Shown here in pieces: positions 407-25,680 of a stretch of 64,000 bases of DNA. The notes under the pieces are model-generated. The model did not search any database. It had not been told where the DNA came from and saw nothing but the letters and a program-made list of their open reading frames with translations. A program made the position numbers and the translations under genes. Within the stretch, counting starts at the first letter, position 1, and the number at the start of each line of letters is the position of its first letter. Source of the stretch: Prostheceraeus crozeri (Eukaryota; Platyhelminthes; Polycladida; Euryleptidae); assembly GCA_907163375.1 (NCBI GenBank), contig CAJQUW010001407.1, positions 56,027-120,026 of the forward strand, written 5' to 3'.

Positions 407-520
407 TTATTCATCAAAACACTGACTACAAGCGATAGCCTGGCATTTGCCGCAGACTGGACAATGACACCGTCTACATAGGTTCACTGTTCGATTCTTT
501 TGACAATACACATCGACAAG
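407..520 (-). pseudogene. piggyBac-like transposase C-terminal Cys-rich tail (relic, left half)
   Basis: Read on the minus strand, this flank encodes a Cys-dense tail with the pattern C..C.C..C..C....C..C, ending in CFDE and a stop codon at 407-409. It resembles the Cys-rich domain that ends piggyBac transposases. The matching catalytic-region remnant lies on the other side of the Polinton at 22519-22745, also on the minus strand, so the Polinton appears to have split an already decayed piggyBac gene. The two halves are not cleanly in one frame, which fits an old relic. The assignment rests on the Cys pattern and on the partner segment. Confidence 0.55.
515..520. repeat. Left target-site duplication GACAAG
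   Basis: The six bases GACAAG directly precede the terminal AGTAGTAAT of the Polinton and are repeated exactly after its right terminus at 22519-22524. Polintons are known to make 6-bp duplications. Confidence 0.93.
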
Positions 521-1197
521 AGTAGTAATAAAACGGCGAACACCCGACCGGCGCCCCCCCCCTCAGGAACGACAGAGGTTGTGGTCGGCCGCCGTGGTGC
601 TTCGAGTCTGACTCCCCCCCTCTGGAACGACAGAGGTCTGTCGTGGTCTGCCGGCCAGGTAGGTCCGAAAGGTTCGCTGACGTCCCCCCCCTCCCCTCGA
701 TAAAACGACAGAGTGTCGTGGTGGACTTGGGCGACCGCCAGGTTTTGACTTGAGGCTATAGTGTGTGATGACTTTCGTGAAATCTGATGAATGTTGGGTT
801 GAAAATGGGATGTTTCGAGTGGAAGCAGTGCTCGGATGGGAAAACGAAGGCGAGATTCGGATTCAGCGTGAAATTCTGCATCTGTATGGTGAATTTGAAA
901 GCAATCGGAGAGAAAAATTTTCGCTGACGTCCCCCCCTCGCACCCGACTTCCCAAACTTTGCTTAGTGGGTGGATTTTAATGTGCAATAGCTCGTTTGAA
1001 AAGCTAAGGAGTGACCAGAGGTGAGAAGAAAGACTTGTTCATATCTTCTCTCTTTGAGATGTGAGACGCCCATTTAAGATTTTTTTTGGAGAGCGGCGAT
1101 TTGAAAAACCACAGAGTTAGAATTTTGGACGTTTTGGGCTGTAGCTTCAAAACGAAGCATCGGAGAGCAAAACGGATTTCAGGTTTGGAATCAGCAT
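521..1197. repeat. Polinton left terminal inverted repeat
   Basis: About 677 bp are inversely matched by 21854-22518, with small indels. The outer part has C-tracts followed by ACGACAGA words. The word GCTGACGTCCCC, which contains a CRE/ATF-like TGACGTC core, recurs near 677, 925 and 1422 and in the right repeat. Open frames across this stretch occur on both strands but follow the repeat structure and look non-coding. Confidence 0.92.
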
Positions 1198-1900
1198 GAA
1201 ATTCTCTATCAACATGGTGAGTTTCAAGTCAATCGGAGAGAATAAATTTTTCTTCACAAAATATTTCCGAAAAACGACAGAGTTAGAATGTTGGGTTGAA
1301 AATGGGATGTTTCGAGTGGAAACAGTGCTCGGATGGGAAAACGGAGGCCAGATTCGGATTCAGCGTGAAATTCTGTATCTATATGATGAATTTGAAAGCA
1401 ATCGGAGAGAAAAAGTTTTCGCTGACGTCCCCCCCTCGCCACCGATCTTCCAACTTTGCTTCTAGGGGATGGATTTTGTCGTGCAATAGCTCGTTTGAAA
1501 GCTAAGAGTGAGACAAATTCACTGAAAGAAACGGCTTGTTCATATCTGTCTTCGTTTAGATGTGAGACGCCATTTAAGATTTTGGGAGATTGGCGAAAAA
1601 CGACAGAGTTAGAATTTTGGACGTTTTGGGCTGTAGCTTCAAAACGAAGCATCGGAAGGGAAAACGGATTTCAGATTTGGAACAGCATGAAATTCTCTAT
1701 CAACATGGTAAGTTTCAAGTCAATCGGAAAGAATAAAATTTTCAACATTTTTTGAAAAAACGACAGAGTTAGAATTTTTGCGATGGCTGTGGGCTGTAGA
1801 GCCAAAACGAAGCATCGGATGGGAAAACGCAGGCCAGATTCGGATTGAGCGTCAAATTCTACATGGAAATGGAGTATTTCCAGCTCAATCGGAGCACTAG
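1198..1900. repeat. Subterminal tandem copies of the TIR inner unit
   Basis: From about 1280 the sequence repeats the inner part of the TIR: GTTGGGTTGAAAATGGGATG, then the GACGTCCCC block, then the TTTGCTTCTAG block. A further partial unit runs to about 1900. The unit is about 480 bp. The right end of the element has only one copy, so the left end has expanded. No coding content is supported. Confidence 0.8.
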
Positions 1901-5489: not shown

Positions 5490-5536
5490 CCAATCAGAAT
5501 GAACAGCCAATGAATGATGAATATGAAAGTATATAT
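5490..5536 (+). promoter_or_regulatory. PolB promoter: two CCAAT boxes and TATA box
   Basis: CCAAT occurs at 5490-5494 and 5507-5511, and TATATAT at 5530-5536, about 170 bp before the first coding ATG. The spacing (17 bp between CCAAT boxes, about 23 bp to TATA) closely matches the promoter at the right end (21793-21841), which supports both. Confidence 0.65.
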
Positions 5537-5709
5537 GTAAAGCGACATTCGTGTCATTTCACTCTGTCTTTGAGTCGTATAAATGAAGTGTTCTCTAGCG
5601 AATTCTATATTTGAGGCGTACAAGTGAACTGCTCTCTCGTGAATTCCAAATTTGAGTGAAGTCTCTATCTTGTTGAAGTATAAACCTTAAACTTGATTTC
5701 GTTGAAATG

Positions 5710-5776
5710 GTAAGTTGAAAATTTCTTCACTCATCTCCCTCAAACGTGTGGCTAATAGCATCTTCCTCAATTTCAG
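5710..5776 (+). other. PolB intron 1 (67 nt)
   Basis: GTAAGT directly follows the ATG, and the acceptor TTTCAG ends at 5776. It splits the start codon from exon 2, which begins GCATCAACT. The right-end gene has the same arrangement and the same intron length. Confidence 0.75.
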
Positions 5777-5837
5777 GCATCAACTTCATCACCAACGCCC
5801 TCCCTTCTCGAGGAAAGTTTAGAGTTGCTGAGTCAAG

Positions 5838-5896: not shown

Positions 5897-8800
5897 GTGA
5901 TACCAGTCCCATCTCGAGCGAGTCGGATGACAACAGCGACTCCATGTCAACATTGTCGCGGGATTGCAACGATCGGGAATGTGCTGACTAAGGACACATC
6001 TTCACGAGGAAGCGTGATCTCGTCCGACACATCAAGCGAGGTGTTTGTAGACCTAAGTCAGCATCAATCTCCGAAGGTGGGGATGATTCTGTTAACGATG
6101 TCTCCTTTTCTTGCGATTTATGCATTCAGTCTTTTGACTCACATTTTGAACTATCTTCACATAGACTTCGACATACCCACAGTGACGATAGTTATACCAA
6201 CAGCACCTCCTCTATCCGACTCTCTGAAGTGTCGATAAATAATTTAGTGAGGACCTACCAGATGGAATCCTCAGAAACCATTACTGACTTTGAAGAATGC
6301 TTTCATCAAAATTCATCTTTGATTGGTGCGCTCTTCAACAATTTAGCCAATTTTAGAATGAAGGCGGTCATCTATCTCAAAATAAAATATGCAAAAATCG
6401 ACCACCATACTGGTCAAATAGTAGAGAGGTTGGAGTTTCACATACCCTCCTCTCCTGCAACCGAAGTTGTAGACTGCGAGTCTTGGATAAATTTTCATAT
6501 CCAAGGGTTAAAATTTAGCATAGATAAATTTAACGAGCGTGATAGTGGTCTCGTTTTTGATGGTATTGAGACCGCCATGATTAAAATCACTTTATTAGAG
6601 AACTACTCTGGACGAGGCTCCTTTAAACTTCTGAAAAATTTAAAAAATAAAACAGCAGTCATTTCTGTAGATTGCGAATCGCAATGTTTTAAGTATGCCG
6701 TCCTCTCCATATTCCACTATAATGATGTACAGAATAGCCGATACCGTAAAAGTAAGTATCAACAGTGGGAGAATGAATTAAAGTTTGATGACTGCAATAG
6801 TGAAGATATGAAAATTAAAGATATAGAAAAATTTGAAAAATTGAACAACATCAAAATAGTTCTCCATGTTTGGGAAAAGGGATTGAAGGGTGTCCGCTAC
6901 AACTCGCGTTCGAGTTGTTATGACCACGTTGTCAACCTTTTATTAGTAAGACAGGATGATAGTGAGGAATGGCACTACTGCGGTATTCCCAAAATTTCTC
7001 GCTTATACCACCACTTAAGAAATTCTAGCTCATCAGAGATTTATTACTGTGACAGATGCATTCACAACTTTAGGAGTAAAAATAAATTTGAAACTCATTA
7101 CGAATGGTGTAAGCGAGGTAAACTACAAATGGAGCGCATGCCCAAAGATAAGGAGTTTTCATATAGAGAGAATGGCGATGATCTAAGTCCTCTTCGCGTC
7201 ATCTATGCTGACATCGAATGCTATATCGATGATAACACCCATCGAGCAGCAGCCATTTCCTGCTATGAAGTATGGCATGACCATTTCCAAAATAGAAAAA
7301 ATAAAATGCACGTCTGGCAAGGTGAGGATTGTATTTACCAATTCCTACAATTCCTCGAACAGGCTGTAAAATTTCAACAAAAGTATGATGGTGAACTCTA
7401 TCGCAGATCATTGCATATGACAGCAGATGATCAAGCAAAATTTGATAGTTGCAACGTTTGCCTCAAATGTAGTAAAACATTTGATGATGATAAGATTAAG
7501 AAAGTGCGCGACCATGATCACATCACTGGTAAATTTAGAAACGCACTATGTTCAAAATGCAATTTTTCACGTAGGATGAAACGGCGTACATTACCCGTCA
7601 TTTTCCATAATTTCAAGGGTACGACAGCCATATGATAATAAAAGGAGGTTTAGGTCAAATGAAAGAGTGGAAGCTTGATGTAATAGCACAAACGAGAGAG
7701 AAGTTTATGGCTATGACAGCAAAAGTACCTGTCGATAAAACTAAAGAAAATAAGACGGTCTATTTTGATATAAAATTTTTAGATTCCTACCAATTTATGA
7801 CTGCATCACTGGCCTCTCTCGTACAAAATCTAAAGTCTCTTCCACTAACACAAAATCTTAAGAAACAATATCCAAATCTAACCGATGAAGTCTTCACACG
7901 GAAAGGAGTCTTTTCATATGCATATTTTGATGCGATTAGTAAACTCGGCGAGACTTCTCTTCCGCCCATAGATAAATTTAAAAATGATTTGACCGGCGCA
8001 GAATGTAAGACCGAAGATTATGATCATGCACAAGATGCATGGATAAAATTTGACTGCCATACATTTGGCGAATATATGATTGCCTATCTTAAGTTAGATG
8101 TATTTTTGCTGGCTGATGTATTTCAGGAGTTTCGAAGAGTGGCATTAGAATAAGATAAATTAGATCCCGTCCACTTTGTCAGTCTGCCAGCCATGTCATT
8201 TAAGTCTGCTTTTAAAATGACTGGTGAGACCATTCATCTCTTACAAGATCCAGAGATGTATAATTTATTTGAGCGAGGAATTCGCGGTGGTCTCACATTT
8301 GTAAATAAACATAGGTTAAAATCAAAATTAGTAGGCGATGATCAGACTCATCTTAAGTATTATGACCAAAATAATTTATATGGTAGTTCACTATCCAAAC
8401 CACTCCCTCACTCTGAGTTTAGCTGGTTAGATGATAGTGAAATTCAGCATCTCTCCAACCCTTCTAACATACTAGCAATTCCAGATGAAGGTGATTGGGG
8501 ATATTATTTTGAGATAGATCTAATCTATCCAAATAATATTAAACATAAAACCGTAGATTTTCCACTCGCACCCGAATCAGGTGAAGTGACCAAAGATATG
8601 TTTTCCGACTTTATGAAACAATTTCATAAAGATTTAGAATCATGCGATCAACCCGACTATAAGCCTTGCCGCAAACTTTTACTCACCCCATATGATAAGG
8701 AAAACTATCTAGTCCACTTTTCCATCTTAAAATTTTATTTAGAAATGGGCATGATTTTAGAAATAGTTCACCGCATTATTAAATTTAGACAGAAAGCCTT

Positions 8801-9707
8801 CCTCAAACCATATATTGATAGCAACAGCCAGAAACGTGCACTAGCCCAAAATAATTTTGAAAAAGATTTTTATAAGTATAAGAATAATAGTCTATTTGGT
8901 AAGACGATGGAGGATGTTAGAAAACGTGTAAACTATAAAATAGTCAATGATGTTACAAAATTTAAGAAATTGGTCTCATCACCTCTATTCATCGATAGAG
9001 ACATTATCGATGAGGACCTTGTAGGTGTTAAAATGATAAAATCTGAAGTTCAGTTGTGCAAGCCCATCTATATTGGCCAAGCTGTACTAGATTACTCTAA
9101 GCTTGAAATGTACCAACTCTTTTATAAAATACTAAAACCATGTCCTCTCGTAAAAGAGGTTCGTTTGTTGGGTGGTGATACAGATAGTTTCTTCTTAGGT
9201 ATTACCACTCAAAAAGATTTAAATTTCAATGAAGTAGGAAAATCTTTAGAAAGATATTTTGATACATCAAATTATCCTACTGATCACCCACTCTACTCCA
9301 TCAAAAATAAGGCAAAACTTGGCTGCTTTAAGGATGAGACAGCAGGGAAGGAAATAGATGAAATGATTCTCCTCCGCCCAAAAATGTACAGTATGAAATT
9401 AAAGGATAGCGACGATAGTATTAAGCGTGCTAAAGGCATATCAAGATCATTGGTCTCTAACATGAAACATAAAAATTTCAGGAAAGCCTATAGAAATAAA
9501 AATATAACGTTTGTCAATATGACAATCTTAAAATCTAAGTCGCATGAGATCAAAACTCATACTTTTAGGAAACGGGCGCTTTCAGCATGGGAGGATAAGA
9601 GGTGCTGGTTAGAACATAACATATCTCTTCCACATGGACATCCTGACACAACATACCACCACCCAAAAGAATTAAACTCACACTACCACATTCAGGAGAC
9701 GTCTTAG

Positions 9708-9891: not shown

Positions 9892-11442
9892 TCACTTTGT
9901 TTTCCGAAACACTAAAGTTACGAGGGATTTAGTATCTTTCACATGGATGCACTCTTGTAAACCATTGGTAATTTTGATAGCAATAGATGGTATAGTTTGT
10001 TTGACGACGGGATGATAGAAAATAGATTCAAACATCTTCTCGACTATTCCATATGAAGCGTCTTTATCATGAATGAAATCACGTAAAATGTATTCTTTTT
10101 TCTCACCAACAGAAATAGGTAGAATCAAATCACTTTGAATGTAAAGGTGCTGTTCATGTTTATCAAGTGTCATTGGTGTTTCTATACCAATCGTATGCGC
10201 AGCAGTAAACACAGTTTGTAGCATTGAAAAACCAAAGAGTTTTTTCAAATTTTTACTCAATTGACATTGAATGTCATCACCCAGTTTCAGAACAACGCGT
10301 TGATTTTCAATTGAAAACGAAATGTGGTGTGTCTTTACATCATATTTACTTTTCATCACATGCTTCAACTTCTGTTGTATAAAAGGATTTACTACATGAA
10401 TGAAGCTTTCAACTGTATGATATAGACGCGGCATTATATTGATAGCAACTTTAGATTCTTCATAAGACTGGTAAATTTTCTTGATGCGATCACCATAGAT
10501 GTCCACCCACCATTCATCATTAACTGAATCAGCTTTAGTGTGATATTCATGAGAAGCATATACCACACCGCTTCCAATAATAGGTGTATAATGTCTTACA
10601 AAATGACGCAAGGTTGGAGAGAAATAAACTGTAAGTTTGTCATTATATTTCTGAATAACCAACTTATTTTTGTCCGCCATAATTTTCTCTCCATACTTCT
10701 TACCCACAGTCTCATTCCATCGTTTTACTAACTCAATAAGTGATAAAGGTTGAACACCACGCTTTTTCAAAATGATGCGTTCTTCACATTCTACAACATC
10801 TTCATCAAATATTTTAAATTTATAATGAAATTTGTTGATTCGATTTGAATAAACTTTTTTAACATTTGCAGTAGCAATTGACGTTAGATGTAGTCCATGG
10901 CCAAAACCGAGATGTGGATAGAATTCATTATCCAACCTCAGTGTAAGACCTTTAGTAAAAGAATGAAAGCGAAGGAACTGTCTCCCACTCCAATGATAGA
11001 TAGTAAACTCATAAACTTTCTGATCCTTATTCTTCATGATGGAAGTATTTCCACTATTGAACGCCTTAATAATTTTCTCATTCCCAAATGGTTCATAAGA
11101 ATCTGATTTTATCTGAATCCATTCATAGTTCCACTTTCCATCTGATTTTAAATTGTATGGGAACTGGAATGCATTATTCATCGTTATTCCATCATGGGTG
11201 CGAGGAGTCAATATCATTTCTTCCAAATCATTCACATTCTGAATATTGCTATCATAGCAAATACTAGAAACGCCAACCTCCCATTCACCTTCTAAATGTA
11301 GTGGGCGATTTAATTCTACTCGAAAGTCTGATGGTTTATTTTTGGGAAATTTATTCATAGAAGCATTACTGGATAAGTAGATTAGAAACGAGTCTTTATT
11401 TTCACTTTTCATATTATTCACATTGGAAAAATATATTAGCAT
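9892..11442 (-). CDS. Large Polinton virion-type protein, paralog A
   Basis: An intact frame of 516 residues. It shares an N-terminal signature (an S/N-rich opening, then RPLHLEGEWEVGVSSI) with its neighbour at 11452-12849, so the two are tandem paralogs. I recall this LxGxWEVGLxEI signature from large Polinton-encoded proteins of invertebrates; a capsid vertex, penton or fibre role is plausible but inferred. No catalytic motif, signal peptide or membrane segment is seen, and it looks beta-rich. Alignment with the paralog suggests that translation may start at Met11 (ATG at 11412) instead of the first ATG. It is 9 bp downstream of the paralog stop, which implies co-transcription. Confidence 0.8.
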   Translation of the reverse strand: MLIYFSNVNNMKSENKDSFLIYLSSNASMNKFPKNKPSDFRVELNRPLHLEGEWEVGVSSICYDSNIQNVNDLEEMILTPRTHDGITMNNAFQFPYNLKSDGKWNYEWIQIKSDSYEPFGNEKIIKAFNSGNTSIMKNKDQKVYEFTIYHWSGRQFLRFHSFTKGLTLRLDNEFYPHLGFGHGLHLTSIATANVKKVYSNRINKFHYKFKIFDEDVVECEERIILKKRGVQPLSLIELVKRWNETVGKKYGEKIMADKNKLVIQKYNDKLTVYFSPTLRHFVRHYTPIIGSGVVYASHEYHTKADSVNDEWWVDIYGDRIKKIYQSYEESKVAINIMPRLYHTVESFIHVVNPFIQQKLKHVMKSKYDVKTHHISFSIENQRVVLKLGDDIQCQLSKNLKKLFGFSMLQTVFTAAHTIGIETPMTLDKHEQHLYIQSDLILPISVGEKKEYILRDFIHDKDASYGIVEKMFESIFYHPVVKQTIPSIAIKITNGLQECIHVKDTKSLVTLVFRKTK

Positions 11443-11451
11443 ACTTTTGCA

Positions 11452-12849
11452 TTAACTCATCATTCGGAAATGGAGTGTGATACTTGTCACAGCATCTTTA
11501 TGAAAAGGAATCAACGCACCAGCATCGTCATAAATTGCAATATCAATTTGTGGGATGTAGTTTGATTTCAGCTTTGTATAATGCACTTTCTTGAAAGTAT
11601 GCTCAGATAAAATACTGCAGCTTTTTGGCTGGTATGGTATCATTGCTAGCAATGGAGCTTCAACATCTCCCACACGTACATCTTCACCAATATTGGAATA
11701 TATCTGAAAATAGTTAATACGACGCGATAGTGACATGTCTGCGCTAGCTTTGGTTACAGTACCACTTTTAAAGATATTTTGATCAAAACCCAAAATGTCC
11801 ATTAGAGTTTTATCCATAATTAGCTCAATACCTTTTCCACTTATAGTGAGAGACAAAACACCTTCTTTTTCAGAAAATGAAATATGTTGCTCATTAATCA
11901 CTTCATTTAAATAATCTACAACCAATTTAACTGAAGTAATAATGCGAGGCATCAACACTCTTGTTTCATGTAAGATACCACCTAAAGGCTCTACACACTT
12001 TCTGTATAAAGATACGGTCCATTCTGTATCAAATTGATTTGATCTTTCACATGGCAAATGTTGCATATCAAATTTTCCATGAACAGCTGCAGAACGATGT
12101 CGTAGTAACTGACGAAAATCTTTTGAACAAACTAATACTAGATCATCATCATTTAATTTACTTATTGCAATATGATTAGATGATTTGATATAAGTCAATG
12201 TTGCCACTTGTTTACCATCAACTCGAAGGAGATAATTAAATTTCTTCAATAATGTTTCAGGAGTCATGTTTGTCTTTCTTGGCTTAATCACAATCTTCTT
12301 CACCAACGCCTTCTCATTTTTTGGAATAAGATCTACATAATAAGCTTCCTCTCGATATATTAACTGTTTATGACCACTTGGGTGGTAATTAACGTTATAA
12401 TTATCATAGCTTGTTAAGGCGCTAGCGAGGTAACCTAAATCATTTCTTAAACTTGGACTTAAACCAACAATCCAATCTTTCTCAACTACATGATGTACAT
12501 AATTATGATCATCATTGTGCGGAGTAAATTGGACAATATGTTTACACGCTTTATTCAGGAAATCATATATAAACTTTTTACATGATAAGAGATCTTTCTT
12601 TGGCCACTGTGGAATGTATACTCGGCAGCCCTTTTCACATTGGTAAGCAGCTGTACGTCTCATATTAATAGTCATCACCTCATGATCAAAAGTATAGACA
12701 CAGTTGCTATGAACAAGTTGAGTGACACCCACTTCCCACTTTCCATTTAGATGTTGTGTATGATCAATGGGAGTAGAAAAGAGTGCGGCTCGATTACTAG
12801 CAAATCTATTTGCGGCCGCATTTCTAAGCAAAATATGATAAAACGACAT
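11452..12849 (-). CDS. Large Polinton virion-type protein, paralog B
   Basis: An intact frame of 465 residues, starting at ATG 12847-12849. The opening region has HLNGKWEVGVTQL, aligning with EGEWEVGVSSI of paralog A, and the middle regions align around an 'MPR(I/L)' block (LMPRIITSVKLVVDYLNEVI against IMPRLYHTVESFIHVVNPFI). Overall divergence is high, so the duplication is old and the copies have probably specialised. Only 35 bp separate its start from the divergent plus-strand PC4-like gene, so a compact bidirectional promoter or distant spliced leaders must serve them. The virion role is inferred from family memory. Confidence 0.8.
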   Translation of the reverse strand: MSFYHILLRNAAANRFASNRAALFSTPIDHTQHLNGKWEVGVTQLVHSNCVYTFDHEVMTINMRRTAAYQCEKGCRVYIPQWPKKDLLSCKKFIYDFLNKACKHIVQFTPHNDDHNYVHHVVEKDWIVGLSPSLRNDLGYLASALTSYDNYNVNYHPSGHKQLIYREEAYYVDLIPKNEKALVKKIVIKPRKTNMTPETLLKKFNYLLRVDGKQVATLTYIKSSNHIAISKLNDDDLVLVCSKDFRQLLRHRSAAVHGKFDMQHLPCERSNQFDTEWTVSLYRKCVEPLGGILHETRVLMPRIITSVKLVVDYLNEVINEQHISFSEKEGVLSLTISGKGIELIMDKTLMDILGFDQNIFKSGTVTKASADMSLSRRINYFQIYSNIGEDVRVGDVEAPLLAMIPYQPKSCSILSEHTFKKVHYTKLKSNYIPQIDIAIYDDAGALIPFHKDAVTSITLHFRMMS

Positions 12850-12884
12850 TTTTATATTGCTGATCTCCGACTTTGCATAACATC

Positions 12885-13241
12885 ATGAAGACTTGGATTT
12901 CGGACTCTCTACAATATATCAGAGTTGATCGTGATGGAAACGTACATTTCAAAAATTCTCATGGTCATACATCAAGAGGTATTACATTAACATGGCGACA
13001 ATTTGTCAACCTCAATGATATCATGAGGGATTTGGAATATTTTGAAACATTAAGATTCATCTCCTTGGGTGATCAAGTTTGGCTTCAACGTCGCAACAAT
13101 GAAATTCAAATCTGCCATTCTCATTCCGCAAACTGTTTCTCATTTCGCAAATACAATTGGGAGAAGTATAGAAGATACATACATCGCTCCATCATGACAT
13201 TTATTCGTCGTGAGTTCATCGCCCTACTATGCAAATCTTAA
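12885..13241 (+). CDS. PC4-like putative DNA-binding cofactor, copy 1
   Basis: A protein of 118 residues from the ATG at 12885. It is paralogous to the next gene: both open with a Trp and DSLQ, then RDGNVHFK/DRNVYFK, then WEKY(R/K)R..HRSI. The pattern resembles the PC4 (Sub1) transcription-cofactor fold: a half-repeat ending in RGITLTWRQF, like the GISL..EQW segment of PC4, followed by a strand set starting FISLGDQVWL, like the F.LG...V opening of PC4. PC4 binds single-stranded DNA and aids TBP/TFIIA-dependent transcription. The homology is my own pattern reading and needs a profile search. It lies directly upstream of a TBP-like gene. Confidence 0.6.
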   Translation: MKTWISDSLQYIRVDRDGNVHFKNSHGHTSRGITLTWRQFVNLNDIMRDLEYFETLRFISLGDQVWLQRRNNEIQICHSHSANCFSFRKYNWEKYRRYIHRSIMTFIRREFIALLCKS

Positions 13242-13263
13242 TCAGACATGACTACCACGCACC

Positions 13264-13914
13264 ATGAGTTGGAAATTAGATTCTCTACAACGTATTGAAA
13301 CGGATCATGATCGAAACGTCTATTTCAAAGATTCAACTGGAAATGTGAGAAGAGAGTTTGCTTTATCTTATCGTCATTTTCAGTCTCTACATCATATCAT
13401 GAAGGATTTGAAATACTTCTATATGAAAAGACATTCACGTATTGGAAATCGCATCTGGTTGCGCGTCAACAAACGGCGAATTCAACTCTATCATTCCCAA
13501 CTCCATACTAACTTCACATTTCATCAAGGTAGTTGGGAAAAGTATAAAAGGAAGGTACATCGCTCAATTTACTCATTTTTTCATTATGAAGCGCCATCGC
13601 TACACCATCGTCAACATTCTCCGTCGCTTCAGACTCTACACCAAAATCGATCTCACAACATTACACCAACACCTTCCAAACAGCAAGTATTACCCGGGCC
13701 GACCTCAAATGTTAGTGGTGAAGATGAACAATTCGCGGAATCTTCAACTCTTCCCAAATGGGACTGTACAGATTCTCGGCGCCCTTTCTCATTCATCGGC
13801 GCAGTCAATGCGCTTAGAGCTACAAAGACTACTGCGTCGGATATGGAAGAGGGAGAGGTGTATGATGTCGAATCTGACTGTGGACAATATGGTGATCTCT
13901 ACTCAATTGAGTGA
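13264..13914 (+). CDS. PC4-like putative DNA-binding cofactor, copy 2, with overlapping tail
   Basis: The first 105 or so residues align along their length with the preceding gene (MSWKLDSLQ against MKTWISDSLQ; GNRIWLRVNKRRIQLYHSQ against GDQVWLQRRNNEIQICHSH; SWEKYKRKVHRSI against NWEKYRRYIHRSI). The paralog stops about 20 residues after HRSI. This copy reads on for another 110 residues through the TBP-like gene in a different frame (13586-13914) and ends with an acidic MEEGEVYDVESD-like stretch. Either the original stop was lost or the tail is a real overlapping coding segment. The gap to copy 1 is 22 bp. Function is inferred as for copy 1. Confidence 0.6.
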   Translation: MSWKLDSLQRIETDHDRNVYFKDSTGNVRREFALSYRHFQSLHHIMKDLKYFYMKRHSRIGNRIWLRVNKRRIQLYHSQLHTNFTFHQGSWEKYKRKVHRSIYSFFHYEAPSLHHRQHSPSLQTLHQNRSHNITPTPSKQQVLPGPTSNVSGEDEQFAESSTLPKWDCTDSRRPFSFIGAVNALRATKTTASDMEEGEVYDVESDCGQYGDLYSIE

Positions 13915-14131
13915 AAGTGTATCATTTTTGAAGATTCGTACCAGCAGTTACAATTTGTGTTATGAACCCGAACTTTTTCCTGCAGCTCTCATTAGTTGTT
14001 GTTTACCTGTGCATGTGGCTATCTTTCATAATAGTAAAGTGATCATTACTGGACTAAAATCTCATGTACAAGCAAATGTGATCCTAGACTATCTCATCGA
14101 GTATGTACGTACCCAGCGGATTGTAAAATAA
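13586..14131 (+). CDS. TATA-box-binding-protein (TBP)-like protein
   Basis: A protein of 181 residues from the ATG at 13586-13588. It has the two-fold repeat of the TBP core. Repeat 1 (about residues 6-86) has KIDLTTL, then YYPGRP, then LQLFPNGTVQILGA, then S..AQ. Repeat 2 (about 97-175) has VDNMV, then the hallmark YEPELFP (126-132), then VAIFHNSKVIITGLKS. The order and spacing match eukaryotic TBP. Of the four Phe residues that TBP uses to kink TATA DNA, three appear retained (F56, F131, F147); the first, near P40/Q41, is replaced. There is no N-terminal extension and the frame is intact. AATAAA overlaps the stop region. Its role would be binding promoter DNA, perhaps the element's own TATA boxes. 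It is clearly divergent from host TBP. Confidence 0.88.
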   Translation: MKRHRYTIVNILRRFRLYTKIDLTTLHQHLPNSKYYPGRPQMLVVKMNNSRNLQLFPNGTVQILGALSHSSAQSMRLELQRLLRRIWKRERCMMSNLTVDNMVISTQLSESVSFLKIRTSSYNLCYEPELFPAALISCCLPVHVAIFHNSKVIITGLKSHVQANVILDYLIEYVRTQRIVK

Positions 14132-14157: not shown

Positions 14158-14619
14158 TTATTTCAAATCATGATAGAACTTACAAATCATTTTTTCATTA
14201 GAGGATGGATTACATGAAAAGTTTTGAATAACAGATACAAATCGAGATACATGTAAACGTTTTAAGACGAAGTACAGTACAAAAACACCACACTTTGATG
14301 AAAGTGGATGTTGCAGTATGCGTTCATTTCGCTGATATTGACGCGTATGTTTTCTCAACCACTGCTGTGTTGGTATATTTGGAGGTTGAGCAAGAGAGTC
14401 AAATAGTTCACCACGTCGGTCTTCTCCAATAAAGATCGCTTTCCAATGCTCACCGCCTAAATTCTGCGAATGAGTGTTTAGCACAATAAAGATGGGATAT
14501 TGATTTACTGCAGGTGGTAAGGTATCGAGTGAATTGACATTATCGAAAGCTTTCAACGTCGCTTCGTCTGCATTACGCTGCACTTTAGTCTTAATATCGT
14601 CAGCAGTCAACCAACTCAT
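14158..14619 (-). CDS. PRO: Adenain-like cysteine protease
   Basis: A protein of 153 residues, the usual size for Polinton PRO. The catalytic set of the adenovirus/Ulp1-type fold is visible: His58 in GEHWKAI, an acidic residue in ELFDSLA (D74 likely), Gln103, and Cys110 in SSKCGVFVLYF. In related viruses this enzyme processes capsid and core precursors during maturation. The stop and a poly(A)-like AAATAAAAA lie at the left, opposite the 3' end of the TBP-like gene. Its ATG overlaps the last base of the capsid gene. The frame is intact. Confidence 0.92.
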   Translation of the reverse strand: MSWLTADDIKTKVQRNADEATLKAFDNVNSLDTLPPAVNQYPIFIVLNTHSQNLGGEHWKAIFIGEDRRGELFDSLAQPPNIPTQQWLRKHTRQYQRNERILQHPLSSKCGVFVLYFVLKRLHVSRFVSVIQNFSCNPSSNEKMICKFYHDLK

Positions 14620-15820
14620 TAACGATTATACTGAAGAATAACGTCACGATACTTTGTAATTTCAATGTTTGAATCGAAGACTGCATAAATTAATACATTG
14701 ATCGTCTCAGGTAGTGTTCTTTTGAACGTCAAATCCAAACGAATATTATGAGGCACGTTCGCTTGAAGATAGGGTACACTAATATCGCTGTCAGCAGTCA
14801 AATCAAATGCATCCATAAAATCAACATAACTGCGCATAAATTGATCCGCATCAAAATCTGGTTTGTAGGGTGGACCAGGATGACTCACACCATTTACACG
14901 TAAAGCAATTTCACTTAACTGATTGTGTTTAAAATTGAAAGGATTCTTCTTTATATTACCATTAAATGCATCATTTTCAACCATTGCCACCATGAGGAGC
15001 TTCGGTGCTTCCGATGGAAAGAAGCCATCTTTCATGAAACTCTTTTGATCTTTCGGAATTGTAAAGGTGAGAAGCTTTGTATGCTGAACGGGGTAAATGG
15101 CATTTTGGCGGTTAAGACCTTCAGCATGTCCTCTAATGACACTTGGATTCGGTACTACTCGACGAATGTAAAGTGCAATATCTTCCACATGAATTCTAAA
15201 ATTGTCAACTTTACCAAATGCATTCAGCGCAAATTCAGGCTTATTCAATGTCAGCTTGAGTCGCATGCTGGTATTACAGAGTAAAAACTTTGACTGTCTA
15301 AAGAAGTCTAAATTCAGCGGACCATATAGCTGACATACTTTACTATCTTTAATCATAGCAGATCGCTTTACAAAGCCACTGTTTGTTTCAACATCAAATT
15401 TTCCTGCTTCATCTCTGTACCATCCCATGGCTTCCATATGACTTTTTTGTGCTGCTGGATGAAACTGTGATACATGATTGAAATATGATTTATAGGGATA
15501 ATCGCTTTGACCACCTTCCACCTGCTGCTCTCCAATCGTTAGAGAAACATCGCGAAGTAATGTAGTCAATGGTAAATTGTTCAGTCCAACTTTATGTACA
15601 TCGTCAATAGCAGTTCCATCTGCTTGCTGAATTCTAAACCTCAAATCAACCATCGCATAACTCAAATCTATGTAGTCATCACTACCACCAGGAATAACAA
15701 ATTCAATGGGCCAGCATTCTCAGCTGTTCGAGGATGATAATCTACAATACTTGAACTAAGAATATCTGTCTGTATGGCTTGTTGATCAAACAAACAAAAT
15801 CCGGAAGTTTTACACTCCAT
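14619..15820 (-). pseudogene. MCP: Major capsid protein (hexon-like, double jelly-roll type), frameshifted
   Basis: The long frame (14619-15665, 348 residues) has the look of the Polinton capsid family annotated in worms as F54H12.2-like: a DLRFRI strand, LPLTTLLRDV, a YPYKSYFN block, LYGPLNLDFF, and a C-terminal NLIYAVFDSNIEI-like strand. The N-terminal 40 or so residues, starting at ATG 15818-15820, are in another frame. The two frames meet near 15708-15716, consistent with one missing base. Expected family length is about 400 residues, which fits. It lies between the core protein and the protease, the usual Polinton order. The break is either a real mutation or an assembly indel. Confidence 0.88.
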
Positions 15821-15822
15821 GA

Positions 15823-16278
15823 TTAGAAGTTATAGCAGCGTCGTCGTTTAGCGCCTGATGAATGATTAGAGCCTCTGCGACGTTTGCGTGAATGCCTTTT
15901 GACTGAAGATCGCATCCTACCAGCTCCGCGATGTTTCCTTCTTCCTTTATTCATTCGTTTAGGTGATTTCTTTCCTTGAGTAACACCAGCAAAGGTCTGC
16001 TTCAATGTTTTTAAACCGCGTTCCTTCCCACGATTCAACAAACTGCTCTTAAAACTTCTACCTCTGGAAAGATCACTAGCAACATCACCAGCAAAGCCAA
16101 CGGCATTACTTAAAACATTTCGTTTTAAAGATCTACCGACATTGGATATGAGAGGTGCTACAACAGATTTCAGTGCACCAAGTATGCTACCTCCACGTTG
16201 GCGGCGAGCGCCGATGTAAATTTGTCCTCCACCACTTACATAGGAGGGTCGTGAATAAAATGAGGCAGTTGGATTCAT
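15823..16278 (-). CDS. Basic core/minor capsid protein (pVII/pX-like)
   Basis: A protein of 151 residues starting MNPTASFYSRPS. It has a Gly/Arg linker (ARRQRGGS), an amphipathic helical region (about 33-75, with SVVAPLISNVGRSLKR) and a very basic C-terminal third rich in Arg/Lys (KSPKRMNKGRRKHRG and beyond). The layout matches the DNA-binding or membrane-active core proteins encoded next to the capsid gene in Polintons and adintoviruses. The stop lies 2 bp before the capsid start codon, indicating a tight cluster. The assignment is by composition and position. Confidence 0.75.
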   Translation of the reverse strand: MNPTASFYSRPSYVSGGGQIYIGARRQRGGSILGALKSVVAPLISNVGRSLKRNVLSNAVGFAGDVASDLSRGRSFKSSLLNRGKERGLKTLKQTFAGVTQGKKSPKRMNKGRRKHRGAGRMRSSVKRHSRKRRRGSNHSSGAKRRRCYNF

Positions 16279-16319
16279 AGCTCAAACCCTAAACATTGTT
16301 AGTTACAACTTTGCATGAA

Positions 16320-17540
16320 TCACTGTCGATCACTTAGATGAAAGATGTCGGCACGACGCATCCAAGAGTTCATACTTGAAGGATAACCAGTCCATTTAAC
16401 AAGACACCATTCTTCACCTTGCCGTTTTTTACATCGAATGATTTTCTCTACCAAATATGTTTCACTTTCAGTGACTACCTCAATCTCATCGCGGTAAAAG
16501 CTACCCTCAATTTCTTCATTATCGTAATCTTTCAACTTGTAGGTGGTGGGAGAGTCTTTTTGATTAATCCTTGATACTGTAAATACCTCCTCTGTCCAAT
16601 TCGGAAGGTACCCTTTAGCAAAAACACTTTTCACTTTTGAGATACGAACTTTATCACCAATTTTCACATCACTTTTCACATGAGTGCGTTTACGTTGGAA
16701 TGATTCACGCACTTTATCTACATTGTCAGCATTTACATCTACTGGTCTGAATCCAATAGAACGATGGATAGAGTGATTGTAGGCATGGAGTGTATCTTGT
16801 AGAACTTTTGTCCAATTTTGTGTCAAGTTGGCAGTAAAATGTCGCCACAAGCGATTTTTTAATGTGCGATTAAAACGTTCAACGAGTGCAGCTTTATAAG
16901 CACTCTTTACACTAAACAACTCAATGTCATGCCTCTCAAATAATCTTCTCACATGCTGATTTTCAAACTCTTTTCCTTGATCGCTCTGAATTCTTTTTGG
17001 AATGCGACCTTCTCGAAAAATTGTTTGGAATGCTTTTGCTACTCCTTTCCCTTCTTTAGTTTTTAAAGGTTGAGCCCACGCATAACGCGAGAAAATATCA
17101 ATGACGGTTAAAATAAAATTATTGCCCGAGTTATGTTTTGAAATGGAGGCGACATCACACAAATCTGCTTGCCACTGTTCATCAATGTCATGAACAATAT
17201 AATGGCGGGTGCGGTACTTCTTTTTCGCTTGTTTGTGGAGTGTATAGGTAGCCTGACCCTTTAACCATCGTTTCACTTGTGATTGTGGAAGACCACTCGC
17301 TTTTGATAATTTCTTGATCGATGCAAATCCTGCCGGATGTTTTACATCATAATAGATTGACTTCAAACGTTCAGTCGATGACGACTGACTCTTTTTCCTC
17401 CTTCGCATCTTTTTGCTTGCTTGCCTTTCTACATTTACAACAACTGCAGCATTTAGCTTTAGTGGTTTTGCGATCGTGTTCACATTGCTTAGGGGTTTCA
17501 TTGTGAGAGCTGGCGCAGCAAGTGCAAGTGACAACGACAT
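16320..17540 (-). CDS. INT: Polinton integrase with C-terminal chromodomain
   Basis: Retroviral-type integrase that inserts the element and makes the 6-bp target duplication. Using the longest frame (406 residues), the catalytic triad is Asp126 (WQADLCD), Asp187 (QSDQGKEF) and Glu221 (ALVERFNRT). A helix-turn-helix-like stretch (about 60-95, IKKLSKASGLPQSQVKRWL) precedes it. The C-terminus has a chromodomain (about 365-400, ending VKWTGYPSSMNSWMRR) with the aromatic residues usual for methyl-lysine binding. The first 44 residues look unnatural and overlap a Cys-rich frame, so the real start is probably Met45 (ATG at 17406-17408). The catalytic region is intact. Confidence 0.93.
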   Translation of the reverse strand: MSLSLALAAPALTMKPLSNVNTIAKPLKLNAAVVVNVERQASKKMRRRKKSQSSSTERLKSIYYDVKHPAGFASIKKLSKASGLPQSQVKRWLKGQATYTLHKQAKKKYRTRHYIVHDIDEQWQADLCDVASISKHNSGNNFILTVIDIFSRYAWAQPLKTKEGKGVAKAFQTIFREGRIPKRIQSDQGKEFENQHVRRLFERHDIELFSVKSAYKAALVERFNRTLKNRLWRHFTANLTQNWTKVLQDTLHAYNHSIHRSIGFRPVDVNADNVDKVRESFQRKRTHVKSDVKIGDKVRISKVKSVFAKGYLPNWTEEVFTVSRINQKDSPTTYKLKDYDNEEIEGSFYRDEIEVVTESETYLVEKIIRCKKRQGEEWCLVKWTGYPSSMNSWMRRADIFHLSDRQ

Positions 17541-17587: not shown

Positions 17588-18280
17588 TTAATAGTCTGAG
17601 AACATGTATTTATTGGGAGGAGCTGTTTTACGTTTTCCTTTTACTAGTTTTAGTGGTGATGTAGATCTACGTCGAGTTCTTCCTCTTGTTTGCTTAGTGA
17701 GTGTGGGAGGGGATGTAGCAGGTGACGTCTTAAACCAATTTGTTGGCATTTTCATCATCTGAAGCATTGGAGCAGTAGCCACTGTTGAATCAAGTTCTTT
17801 CAATGTCTCATTATTCAAAGCAAATTTTGGCACATTATGCTTTTTCAATAGTTTAAGAAAGTATGACCAACCAGGTGGAACATAGCCCTGACGGCGCTTT
17901 CTACGTGTCGCATACTGAATCAAGTCTTCATAACGTGAAGCATCAATCACTTTATTTTCATCTGTAATGATTTCTCCTCTATCATTTACATTGAGATGGG
18001 GTTCAATACTGTTGAAAAGAGATATGGCATGTGCGCGAGATGCTAAAGGTGTAGCAGTCGATACAGAGTCACGCATCTTATTCTTCAAGTTTTTCAATTG
18101 CTCAACAGTTTCCGATTGTAATAATACAGCACGATGTGGATCTTTGATGTGAACATTTTGCTGATAATCTATTTCTTTCCTATACATTTGATTTGCAAGA
18201 GGTTGCTTTACTTGCTGCATGGCAGTCAATTGTACATATTCATCCTGAGGAATAACAATCATGCGAGAATAAGAACTCAA
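17588..18280 (-). CDS. Conserved Polinton protein of unknown function
   Basis: An intact frame of 230 residues. The N-terminus has VIPQDEYVQL, then a helical region with DPHRAVLLQSETVEQLKNL (about 50-70), and then a more structured part with RRRQGYVPPGWSYFLKLLKK (about 130-150). The C-terminus is basic (TRGRTRRRSTSPLK). I recall proteins of this type next to the ATPase in other Polintons, probably virion-associated, but cannot name a fold. It overlaps the ATPase stop by 4 bp (ATG/TGA style), supporting co-expression. Confidence 0.72.
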   Translation of the reverse strand: MSSYSRMIVIPQDEYVQLTAMQQVKQPLANQMYRKEIDYQQNVHIKDPHRAVLLQSETVEQLKNLKNKMRDSVSTATPLASRAHAISLFNSIEPHLNVNDRGEIITDENKVIDASRYEDLIQYATRRKRRQGYVPPGWSYFLKLLKKHNVPKFALNNETLKELDSTVATAPMLQMMKMPTNWFKTSPATSPPTLTKQTRGRTRRRSTSPLKLVKGKRKTAPPNKYMFSDY

Positions 18281-18942
18281 AGTTTGTAGATAATCATGGG
18301 AGTTTTCAAAATATCACTTCGAAATCTAAATTCTTCCGGACACTCTTGCGTAAAGTCAATGAATAAGTAACCGTGTGGTTTTTCAGTAGCTGCTTGAAAA
18401 ATTTCAATTAAGGCTTTTGATCCTCTGGGTGCAACTTGTCGCGCTAAAATTTCAAATTGACTTTTATCTCGCGGATTCTTGAAAATAGCATAATAGTGTG
18501 TATTCAGGTTTCGTGTACGAGCTTCTTTTCCATCAGGAAACAAATTTTGTGTGATATAGATGATAAAGCACCTTTTATGATGTGCTGCGCGAGTGAACAT
18601 ATCTGTAACATCTTTTGAATTCTTACTTTCTTTTAATAGATCATCCAATACAACAACATCATTAGACTGAAGTTTATCCACTGCAATAATTCCTTCATGT
18701 CGAATAAAGTTGCGACTTTGCAATTCCTGAAACAGCGACGGTTGATAAATACCATAACACCAAATCACTCGATTGATAGGTTCCTTAAACAGCTCCCTTC
18801 TTTTATCCAATAAATTCAGCGTGAAAACAGTTTTACCTGCATGAGATGGACCTGATACAGTCAGAACTTTATCACATTGAAGTCTGAAATCCATTATAAT
18901 ACTTTGAGATTCAACATTTGCATAATTAACGCTTAGAGCCAA
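18277..18942 (-). CDS. ATP: DNA-packaging ATPase (HerA/FtsK type)
   Basis: A protein of 221 residues, close to the usual size for the Polinton ATP protein. The Walker A motif GPSHAGKT is at 31-38, Walker B VVVLDDLL at 96-103, and a sensor-like IIYITQNLF follows at about 122-130. The family pumps genomes into preformed capsids of double jelly-roll viruses. No break is visible. Its start overlaps the end of the upstream basic protein (18926) in another frame. Confidence 0.93.
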   Translation of the reverse strand: MALSVNYANVESQSIIMDFRLQCDKVLTVSGPSHAGKTVFTLNLLDKRRELFKEPINRVIWCYGIYQPSLFQELQSRNFIRHEGIIAVDKLQSNDVVVLDDLLKESKNSKDVTDMFTRAAHHKRCFIIYITQNLFPDGKEARTRNLNTHYYAIFKNPRDKSQFEILARQVAPRGSKALIEIFQAATEKPHGYLFIDFTQECPEEFRFRSDILKTPMIIYKL

Positions 18943-19291
18943 AGATATTACCCAATAGGTTGCCCACGACAGGAGCTAGCATCGGTAGTAACGCTGGAAG
19001 GAAACCGCCCTTTTGTGTTAGAGTTTTCCTCTTTCTTTGAAGGGTGACTTTAGGATTGGAGATGAAACGCAATTTCGTAGCATATCGCTTAAGTAGCTTT
19101 CGTTGTTTTGGTGCTAATTTCTTCGTCCTCAACTTTCTCACATGAGAAATAATTTCACGAATGAATTTATCGTTAGCATGTCGTATAGCATTGTATCGCT
19201 GATTTGCTTTCATTCGTCGGAGAGCTTGAATGGCTGAAGAAAACTTTGAAGACTTTTGACTTTTACGTTTCGTCATTTTACGTTTCGCCAT
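18926..19291 (-). CDS. Small basic protein with C-terminal hydrophobic Gly-rich segment (pX/pVI-like)
   Basis: A protein of 121 residues. The first 90 are strongly basic (MAKRKMTKRKSQKSS and RKRKTLTQ), and the last 25 are hydrophobic and Gly/Pro-rich (GGFLPALLPMLAPVVGNLLG). A basic body plus a membrane-active hydrophobic tail recalls adenovirus-type core or lytic peptides and the pX-like proteins of adintoviruses. It probably binds packaged DNA or helps membrane crossing. The assignment is by composition and by position next to the ATPase. Confidence 0.75.
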   Translation of the reverse strand: MAKRKMTKRKSQKSSKFSSAIQALRRMKANQRYNAIRHANDKFIREIISHVRKLRTKKLAPKQRKLLKRYATKLRFISNPKVTLQRKRKTLTQKGGFLPALLPMLAPVVGNLLGNIFGSKR

Positions 19292-19342
19292 TTTCCGTGT
19301 TAGTCTTTGCTAAAACCTATCTTTACCACATTTGCATAGGTA

Positions 19343-20908: not shown

Positions 20909-21683
20909 CTAGTAATTCTCCTTCTTTGATTTGCGTTTTGATGCAGCATTCTTCTCCGACTTGCGCTTCGTACCACTGCTGTTAAGGATTTGATCAATTA
21001 TGTCATCCACGTTGGGTGGTTTTGGAATATATAGGATGGATTCCATATGCATGGAGAGAGAGGCTATTTTATTATCCTTGTGTCGACCATAATATAGCCC
21101 ATTCACTTTGAAAAGGATATCCCAAGTACCTTCTCCGAGCTCATCGCATCTGATGGGTATTGATTGATCTCCCTCCTTCTTATAGTAAGTACACCAATGT
21201 GATACCGGTAGGCAAATGTGATTACCATCCCAAATCTTTCTATAGGGAGTATCCTTGTCATCTCTCGCCTTCCACTCTTGAGCAAGAGGAGTAGGAATGT
21301 CCATATTTAATGTCACGTACTCCTCAATAATATCAAGTTGGCGGCGAATGTACGGACTCACGGGGATCAGTATGTAGTCCCCATACTGATTGCGCATTAT
21401 CTTGACATCCGTGGAAGGGAGCATTCCCGTTTGGAGTACTACGCTATGATCGTCATAACGCAAGACTTGTTTAAATTTACGCTGTAGCGGTGTAGGATTA
21501 TGTACCTTGGTTGTTTCTTCCACTGGCCTCAGTTGTAGATGATCTGATCGTAGCGAACCTTGTAACGTTTGACCGCCATTTTGTCCTACTAGTGCAGCAG
21601 ATGGAGTAGATGCCTGAAAATGAAAAAGTATGTATTAAGCTTACGTTCAAGGGAGGAGAGGGAGGGAAGTAGCGACTTACCAT
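20909..21683 (-). CDS. Hypothetical Polinton cargo protein, spliced ATG exon
   Basis: Exon 1 is only the ATG (21681-21683). A 67-nt intron (21614-21680, GTAAGT...TTTTCAG) leads to exon 2 (20909-21613, 705 nt), in frame for a 235-residue product. The protein starts MASTPSAALVGQ, has a folded middle (GDYILIPVSPYIRRQLDIIE, HICLPVSHWCTYYKK) and ends in a Lys/Ser-rich tail (GTKRKSEKNAASKRKSKK) that may be a nuclear localisation signal. No family is recognised. It lies at the right end, transcribed inward, a mirror position to PolB, and shares the promoter and leader design, suggesting an early-expressed or DNA-related role. Confidence 0.65.
21614..21680 (-). other. Spliceosomal intron directly after ATG (67 nt)
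   Basis: The donor GTAAGT abuts the start codon and the acceptor CATTTTCAG precedes GCATCTACT. Splicing gives a continuous frame with the downstream gene. PolB intron 1 has the same length and arrangement. Confidence 0.75.
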
Positions 21684-21792
21684 TTTAGTTGGATAATAGA
21701 ACAGGGAAGTAGAGAGAGAGAGAGAGAGAGAAAATGTGCGTCCGTCACTCGTGTGATTCAACGATGGAATGATTCTCACTGTGGAAGGCTCG

Positions 21793-21841
21793 CTATTTAT
21801 ATAGAAATGCTTGATTCTCATTGGATGATGATCCTCATTGG
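21793..21841 (-). promoter_or_regulatory. Right-end promoter: two CCAAT boxes and TATA box
   Basis: On the minus strand CCAAT lies at 21837-21841 and 21820-21824 (17 bp apart), then TATATAAATAG at 21793-21803. The order and spacing mirror the PolB promoter. A GA/CT simple repeat (about 21709-21731) lies in the presumed 5' UTR. Confidence 0.68.
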
Positions 21842-21853
21842 ACAATAACATCA

Positions 21854-22518
21854 AGCTGATTCCAAATCTGGCCTCCGTTTTCCCATCCGATGCTTCATTT
21901 TGAAGCTACAGCCCAAAACGTCCAAAATTCTAACTCTGTCGTTTTTCGCCAATCTCCCAAAATCTTAAATGGCGTCTCACATCTAAACGAAGACAGATAT
22001 GAACAAGCCGTTTCTTTCAGTGAATTTGTCTCACTCTTAGCTTTCAAACGAGCTATTGCACGACAAAATCCGTCCACTAGAAGCAAAGTTGGAAGGTCGG
22101 TGCCGAGGGGGGGGACGTCAGCGAAAATTTTTCTCTCCGATTGCTTTCAAATTCAGCATACAGATGCAGAATTTCACGCTGAATCCGAATCTGACCTCCG
22201 TTTTCCCATCCGAGCACTGCTTCCACTCGAAACATCCCATATTCAACCCAACATTCATCAGATTTCACGAAAATCATCACACACTTTAGCCTCAAGTCAA
22301 AACCTGGCGGTCGCCCAAGTCCACCACGACACTCTGTCGTTTTATCGAGGGGGGGACGTCAGCGAACCTTTCAGACCTACCTGGTCGGCAGACCACGACA
22401 GACATCTGTCGTTCCAGAGGGGGGGAGTCAGACTCGAAGCACCACGGCGGCCGACCGCAACCTCTGTCGTTCCAGAGGGGGGGCACGCCGGTCGGATGTT
22501 CGCCGTTTTATTACTACT
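21854..22518. repeat. Polinton right terminal inverted repeat
   Basis: 665 bp are inverted relative to 521-1197 and nearly collinear, including the C-tract/ACGACAGA blocks and the GCTGACGTCCCC word. It ends ATTACTACT at 22518, directly before GACAAG. Long open frames on both strands here are by-products of the repeat. Confidence 0.93.
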
Positions 22519-22524
22519 GACAAG
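22519..22524. repeat. Right target-site duplication GACAAG
   Basis: Exact copy of 515-520, directly after the terminal ATTACTACT. Confidence 0.93.
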
Positions 22525-23810: not shown

Positions 23811-24239
23811 AGAGATCCCCACGCCGACCTAATGACTACCGATAATTTGAGAAGTGCGAAAACGAGATGATTGATTGGAAGACCGGTTTCGATCTTGGAT
23901 TTTTATCAATTCCAAATTGACACGTCTTACTCGACAGAAATCAGAACAAGAAGTGAAAAATGCGATCACGTACATCATCAAACACGAGACAGAATAGATG
24001 TTACCGATTGACAGACAATATAGACTGCTTAAAATTCTATGCATAGTAAAAGAAGACAAAGTTCTTACGTCATTCTGGAGTTCACGTTTACAAAGTTGAA
24101 TAACACGCTGACTACAATCGCTGCATGGCACGACAAGATGCAAGTTGGTGGACTTGTTACGTTCAATGTTCAAGCCTTGTGGATGCAACGTTTAAAGCCT
24201 CTTAATCCGATTGCTCTCTTTCATCAAACGCCGAGACTC

Positions 24240-24440
24240 GTCAAGACAGTGCTCCAAGGCAGTAAAAGTAAAATCGGACAATGTACCAGAAGTATTAAAA
24301 TGATTTGACACAGATGAACTATACAATGACTTTATGTTCTCCGAAATACGTCTCTTCAGAGTTCTTGACGTTTGACCAACATAGCCAGCTTTACAATTTG
24401 TACATGAAATAGAATAAATTACATTTACAGATGAGCAGGT
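24240..24440 (-). pseudogene. GIY-YIG endonuclease domain remnant
   Basis: The minus strand encodes VIYSISCTNCKAGYVGQTSR, with the GIY-YIG core as IYSISC...GYVGQT and the Arg-containing helix (LKRRISEN) after it. A further in-frame block, LSDFTFTALEHCLDESRRL, follows. It is the usual C-terminal nuclease of Penelope-like elements and nicks target DNA. It is cut off from the RT frame by frameshifts. Confidence 0.72.
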
Positions 24441-24550
24441 AAGTCTATGTACAATGGCAACAGGGTTATTATTAAAATTATTTACAACTGAAGTAGCAAA
24501 AGTACCAAAGGAGCATACATAACACGAACATGAAAAAATATCCTGTATTC

Positions 24551-25336: not shown

Positions 25337-25680
25337 CCAGTAGGCATTCTACTAGAAATCAGTTCATGAAACTCCTGAATGTTTTTTCTAGAAACTTCAT
25401 CGGCATTGATTGGAATGCTATTGACCAACACTGACAGCTGAGCGTTTAAAAAAATTCTTTTAGCTTTGTAAACTACCGCCCGGAAGACAGTAAAACTATT
25501 CAATGGTTTATTCTTTCCATCTAACATAGATAGACAGATAGTGAAATGTGTGACATTCGAATAAGCGGTCCTGATGGATTGTAAAGATTGCTTAAAGAAA
25601 CTGAAACGACCCCTATTGGTCGAATAAGCAGAGCAATCGATAACCTTAATTCCCCTCAAGTTCGAATCTCCAAAAAACAA
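25264..25680 (-). pseudogene. SGNH-hydrolase-like frame upstream of the RT
   Basis: A 138-residue frame opening FFGDSNLRGIKV (GDS-like block I), with ICLSMLDGKN in the place where SGNH esterases have a G.ND block, and NAQLSVLVNSIPIN as a core strand. I recall GASN/GDSN-type frames before the RT in invertebrate Penelope-like elements. The last 20 residues overlap the RT start in another frame. The assignment is tentative. Confidence 0.45.

Follow-up and report, generated by a model that had tools for sequence, protein, structure and literature searches.

A TBP-family gene carried by Polintons of the flatworm Prostheceraeus crozeri, a candidate late-promoter factor

Polintons of the flatworm Prostheceraeus crozeri carry a TBP gene that is complete, with both repeats, genuine, under selection and part of the elements of this genome. 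The copy described here lies in a 64,000-nucleotide stretch of DNA (the window; Table 1), from an assembly of 2,048,925,868 bp (2.05 Gb). Judging from its residues and surroundings, its most likely role, to which we give slightly less than an even chance, is that of a late-promoter factor of the element, in which case it would be the candidate reader of an AWGCAA motif found before several virion-type genes.

The open frame of 181 codons runs from ATG to TAA, and two stretches of its product match PF00352 (E 1.1e-20; 73.7 bits, cutoff 22.9), bearing out the two TBP repeats claimed in an initial annotation of this DNA; the strings YEPELFP, LFPNGTVQILGA and IFHNSKVIITGLKS that it had named all occur in the translation. 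By sequence alone the product also matched 35 PDB sequences bearing TBP (best E 2.7e-13) among 37 rows at E <= 10, the remaining two being TonB. The structure prediction that had been called for, along with the profile search, gave a confident TBP saddle fold, with about 19-27% identity to cellular TBP in structural alignments. Three of the four DNA-kinking Phe are kept, as had been claimed (F56, F131 and F147), and the fourth position is P40. All four have been taken as a mark of the TBP family, of which three are present here; passages of PMC5825884 describe TBPs with three, indicating that four are common and not strictly defining. In the protein database 61 relatives were found at E <= 0.001, each with PF00352 and none named, which are known here as proteins alone.

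The same annotation had assigned the gene to a Polinton, with a host exon as the alternative. Its assignment stands, since the gene lies well inside the bounds set by the terminal inverted repeats and the 6-bp duplication, and the host TBP gene is elsewhere. On contig C9306 it is split over two or more exon pieces, which share 79 and 86% identity with yeast TBP; contig C3829 has a TLF-like piece interrupted by one stop. The element spans 521-22518 (21,998 bp) and is called a Polinton because it combines terminal inverted repeats, a 6-bp target-site duplication, an integrase with chromodomain, a protease, a weak ATPase match, an Adeno_PX-like protein and an endonuclease VII/polymerase region. 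The inverted repeats start AGTAGTAATA, at 521 and, reversed, at 22518; positions 789-1374 are repeated at 1286-1860 (85%), and this tandem duplication within 521-1860 makes the left inverted repeat region longer than the right. In the polymerase region, Endonuclease_7 matches with E 1.5e-6 (Pfam), one polymerase piece matches DNA_pol_B_2 below the cutoff (E 0.0015) and the other pieces are without a polymerase match; we take the motifs present there to be those of a polymerase. This region is in three pieces in the window copy versus one 870-aa frame in a lineage-B copy. Peptidase_C48 falls just below the cutoff in the window copy and above it (E 7.5e-5) in a lineage-B relative. F54a and CP had no match in the Pfam scan; F54a and F54b are presumably virion proteins, and the F54a start homologous to that of other copies is the second Met, at 11412. 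Neither RNA polymerase nor TFIIB was found among the 21 window ORFs scanned with Pfam.

Table 1. Features of the Polinton and of its TBP gene (positions in the window).
Feature	Position	Strand	Remarks
Target-site duplication GACAAG, left	515..520		identical to 22519-22524
Left terminal inverted repeat	521..1199	+	starts AGTAGTAATAAAACGG; 616/689 columns identical to 21851-22518 reversed
TATATATG box, left terminal gene	5530..5537	+	TATATAAAAGG at same place in related copies L021, L025
Leader: ATG, apparent intron 5710-5776 (GTAAGT...TTTCAG), then GCATC	5707..5781	+	similar in L021, L025, L028
Endonuclease VII/type-B DNA polymerase region	6262..9707	+	pieces 6262-7635, 7632-8153, 8193-9707
F54a, probable virion protein	9892..11442	-	label ours; function presumed
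ATGCAAA motif, F54a	11446..11452	-	40 nt before second Met, 10 nt before first
F54b, probable virion protein	11452..12849	-	label ours; function presumed
ATGCAAA motif, F54b	12872..12878	-	29 nt before start
PURa, 118 aa, paralogue of PURb	12885..13241	+	42% to PURb; four homologs
ATGCAAA motif, PURb	13229..13235	+	35 nt before start
PURb, 216 aa	13264..13914	+	Pur-alpha-like N-domain by predicted fold; tail of low model confidence
TATAAAAG box of TBP gene	13543..13550	+	43 nt before TBP ATG; also within PURb codons
TBP-family gene	13586..14131	+	181 aa; profile, PDB sequence and fold matches
Ulp1/adenain-type protease	14158..14619	-	Peptidase_C48 E 0.00099
CP, probable virion protein	14619..15653	-	label ours; ORF list, start comparison
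Basic protein B	15823..16278	-	label ours; ORF list, start comparison
ATGCAAA motif, B	16310..16316	-	38 nt before start
Integrase with chromodomain	16320..17540	-	rve E 5.2e-11, Chromo E 6.5e-7 (Pfam)
Packaging-type ATPase	18277..18894	-	weak AAA_14 and Pox_A32 matches, below cutoff
ATGCAAA motif, ATPase	18917..18923	-	29 nt before start
Basic core protein X	18926..19291	-	Adeno_PX E 8e-4, below cutoff; label ours
ATGCAAA motif, X	19331..19337	-	46 nt before start
TATATAAAT box, right terminal gene	21795..21803	-	sequence scan
Right terminal inverted repeat	21851..22518	-	matches 521-1199 reversed
Target-site duplication GACAAG, right	22519..22524		identical to 515-520

Two lineages of element TBP are distinguished, that of the window (A) and a second (B) that is 41.5-46% identical to it. 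The lineage-B element on C12605 has the gene order polymerase, F54a, F54b, an ORF, TBP, protease, CP, B, integrase, ATPase and X, which is the order of the window element; the ORF between F54b and TBP, truncated where the stretch ends, is at least 131 aa long and belongs to no recognised family (Pfam). By this common order, TBP is an old resident of these elements. At L023:2587-3081 a lineage-B TBP is closely followed by a lineage-A polymerase piece, as though one element had gone into another or recombined with it. Elsewhere in the window are a reverse transcriptase beside a GIY-YIG domain (24192-25348, Pfam), a pairing that we take to be as in Penelope-like elements, a DDE_Tnp_1_7 (piggyBac-type) transposase (46837-48645), a hAT-type transposase (56060-57601), a Tc-type transposase match below the cutoff (61151-61714) and an amino acid permease exon, probably of a host gene (29377-31092).

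Residues of the element TBP were compared across 42 aligned rows (the window protein and 41 of the 61 relatives) in yeast TBP numbering, at positions which, other than the TFIIB glutamates, are those that we assume to matter. Five of the seven lobe-2 DNA contacts compared are kept family-wide, N159, V161, F190, F207 and T215 each being unchanged in 42/42 rows; the L205 position is A, T or S in 42/42 rows and the V213 position is I in 30 and M in 9, which makes lobe 2 not fully canonical. Both TFIIB-contact glutamates in lobe 2, described in passages of PMC7221094, are kept across the family (E186 is E in 41 rows and D in one; E188 is E in all 42). In lobe 1, F116 is kept in every row and N69 in 37, with five gaps. 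The F99 position, which is P40 of the window protein, is Pro in 41 rows with a gap in one, the V122 position is Gln in all 42, the T124 position is Leu in 38, and the V71 position is Met, His or Leu in 40, with two gaps. The basic surface of the N lobe is mostly lost, the K138 position being E in 29 rows and K in six and the K145 position R or K in 20. Mainly one of the two DNA-binding lobes, lobe 1, is altered.

It had also been suggested that the element supplies its own promoter-recognition factor, possibly tuned to matched TATA boxes at its two ends. We infer that it does supply such a factor, and the tuning is not upheld. The boxes near 5530 and 21795 are internal, each belonging to the first gene on its side, with the true ends at 521 and 22518; they are ordinary TATATAAAA/TATAAATA-type TATA boxes (TATATATG in the window copy and in L028) that host TBP is expected to read, and a distinct non-TATA motif stands before several virion-type genes. 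A TATA box with a leader of ATG joined to GTAAGT...CAG was found at terminal genes in six lineage-A pieces; in one further piece, L022, the leader matched and the scan found no TATA. Inverted matching leaders lie at 5705-5790 and 21600-21685, where a short intron-like stretch stands between ATG and GCATC at the beginning of the first gene of each end, and both products may therefore share a start. The box of the TBP gene, TATAAAAGG, is unchanged in three of five lineage-A reads and has one change in the other two, and both lineage-B reads have a TATAAAA-type box; the lineage-A box lies in PURb codons, which we counted against the late-promoter reading described below.

The non-TATA motif, AWGCAA, is situated 29-47 nt upstream of several virion-type genes (distances to ATGs), a spacing like that of a core promoter, as ATGCAAA in lineage A and AAGCAA in lineage B. 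ATGCAAA is the most enriched 7-mer at -50..-19 of 19 window gene starts, where six of its eight occurrences fall (both strands; expected 0.09), and in 500 dinucleotide shuffles no 7-mer was common to more than four genes. Both this interval and the use of the second Met for F54a were settled once the first hits were known; starting F54a at its first Met gives five genes, not six. TATGCAAA is complete at four of the six sites. The shorter ATGCAA adds U20080 to the six genes, and 12 of the 19 starts, including those of CP, the protease and the integrase, are without it at -50..-19; we assume that genes without the motif are transcribed from promoters further upstream. Where the start could be read in other lineage-A copies, ATGCAAA is kept at the ATPase (3/3), F54a (3/3), B (2/3) and X (2/3); at F54b it is lost in C6825 and changed in C11851, and at PURb it is lost in C6825 and C5038. 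In the lineage-B element the top 6-mer of the same interval is AAGCAA, at 7 of 13 starts (expected 0.21), some of these starts being first ATGs of frames and one non-ATG. With stricter starts it still ranks first, at 5 of 11 (expected 0.17, P 1.2e-6 by Poisson), namely F54a, F54b, B, integrase and X2. Lineage B has the motif at the integrase and none at the ATPase; its F54b site is present in 3/3 copies, and its B site is changed in C432. Across motif sites the bases 5' of AW are variable, with C or G among them, and the 5' half therefore departs from pure A/T.

Under the late-promoter reading, host TBP would act early, starting the genes with ordinary TATA boxes at both ends and at the TBP gene, and element TBP would act late, binding AWGCAA before several virion-type genes. 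In TBP-DNA complexes the 5' half is occupied by lobe 2 and the 3' half by lobe 1; here the mostly canonical lobe 2 might contact the stretch that closes with AW, and the GC-containing half (GCAA) would fall to the altered lobe 1, a fit that is partial because the bases before AW vary, C or G included. The preserved glutamates would recruit host TFIIB, and hence Pol II, to the motif, and without most of its N-lobe basic surface the protein might escape control by Mot1, TFIIA and TAF1. The fuller version, which we advance tentatively and would expect to fail sooner than to hold, is a private core promoter in which one retuned TBP lobe, with host TFIIB and Pol II, would read AWGCAA instead of TATA as a switch from early to virion genes, box and lobe having shifted together between lineages (ATGCAAA to AAGCAA). 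Precedents come from the passages of PMC12529657 and PMC8360532 on beta/gamma-herpesvirus TBP mimics at TATT late promoters, and from a part of PMC5825884 in which a three-Phe TBP is reported to read TGTAA.

The three Phe and the TFIIB glutamates would also suit a general TATA-reading substitute for host TBP at all element genes, with AWGCAA read by some other factor, for example a host POU-type protein, whose octamer we take to be ATGCAAAT. Of the six ATGCAAA sites, three extend to a full octamer. We nevertheless think this account unlikely, though worth weighing: the lobe-1 contacts are changed family-wide, and the lineage-B AAGCAA, although it breaks the ATGC half of an octamer, lies about as far ahead of the start (33-47 nt). 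It is improbable that the element TBP is a decoy or competitor for host TFIIB that lowers host transcription and reads no element promoters, since several DNA contacts that a pure decoy would not need are invariant (the three kinking Phe and the lobe-2 Asn and Thr), even if the kept glutamates and the changes in lobe 1 and the regulatory surface would agree with it.

Beside the TBP gene, tandem paralogues PURa and PURb occupy 12885-13914; they are 42% identical, and PURb is Pur-alpha-like by predicted fold. The tail of PURb, which is partly acidic and of low model confidence, overlaps the TBP gene by 329 nt in a different frame, an overlap inferred for 14/14 long PURb proteins. The adjoining paralogues are what would favour a role of the element TBP in DNA replication or packaging at a specific site, with Pur-alpha-like neighbours as single-strand binders; this we consider very improbable, the TFIIB glutamates, kept in 41-42 of 42 rows, pointing instead to transcription.

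At least 150 open TBP copies are present in the genome, 98-100% identical over residues 1-181 and without stops, counted as the best 150 of 11,697 loose candidates from a protein search and thus a best-scoring subset, not a sample. Two further searches gave 24 loci in 20 distinct places, a few with stops, 80.7-86.7% identical to the window TBP. Uncorrected pN/pS of TBP was computed from 27 distinct copies, left from 36 full-length ungapped ones after duplicates and stop-bearing copies had been dropped (pairs non-independent); it is 0.31 outside the PURb overlap and 0.23 inside. The other frames have 0.91 and 1.02 outside the overlap; within it, the PURb frame has 0.89 and the remaining frame 2.03. 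These ratios point to purifying selection on the TBP gene. The annotation had also called for a tree with host TBP, TRF and viral TBPs. A midpoint-rooted tree was built from 41 sequences: 28 are Polinton-type, 9 come from among 80 archaeal loci, one is viral, and the others are yeast, host TBP and host TLF. The 28 form one clade (support 100, short alignment) on a long branch that stands away from host TBP and TLF. That the gene is a functionless, passively carried fragment of a host gene, for which we found nothing in favour, has a negligible probability given 150/150 open copies in that best-scoring subset, the low TBP ratios (0.23-0.31), one gene order in two lineages, 61 relatives and no grouping with host TBP or TLF.

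We know of no account of the timing of virion genes in animal Polintons. That timing becomes directly testable with an element-encoded TBP that retains the host adaptor surface and differs mainly in one DNA lobe. As a natural altered TBP with a candidate box, it could also help with the long-standing problem of how TBP recognises DNA and takes its orientation there, and the presence of at least 150 near-identical open copies in one genome raises the question of an effect on host promoters that have this box.

The element resembles Polinton/Maverick elements in its inverted repeats, its 6-bp duplication and its retrovirus-type integrase with chromodomain, and probably also in its putative adenain-type protease, packaging ATPase and protein-primed type-B polymerase; to our knowledge their usual gene set includes neither TBP nor Pur-alpha-like genes. 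No report of TBP in a Polinton was found in the open-licence PMC literature among the matches listed; in an alga, mirusvirus-like elements have TBP genes according to a passage of PMC10675990, and the portions of PMC10328495 and PMC12220804 available to us contain nothing on TBP. The protein shares with cellular TBP (PF00352) the two-repeat saddle, the TFIIB glutamates, three kinking Phe and five of the seven lobe-2 contacts compared; it differs in F99->P, V122->Q, T124->L, an N-lobe basic surface that is mostly gone and its transposon carrier. TLF/TRF2 is a TBP paralogue with altered DNA-binding residues, a feature that element TBPs share although they are separate from TLF in the tree. Nucleocytoplasmic large DNA viruses have TBP-like proteins of the same fold in a virus-type carrier (the top match is nameless, and the named matches include such viruses); asfarvirus B263R is described with three Phe in a section of PMC5825884. 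Viral TBPs have diverged at the TFIIB glutamates according to passages of PMC7221094, unlike the element TBP family, which keeps them. If the proposal is right, the element TBP would also be like KSHV ORF24 and HCMV UL87, virus-coded TBP relatives that bring host Pol II to late genes by way of a variant TATA (TATT), the likeness here being one of motif and residues. KSHV ORF24, as described in part of PMC12529657, has four corresponding Phe and is without the TFIIB glutamates, whereas the element TBP has lost one Phe and kept the glutamates.
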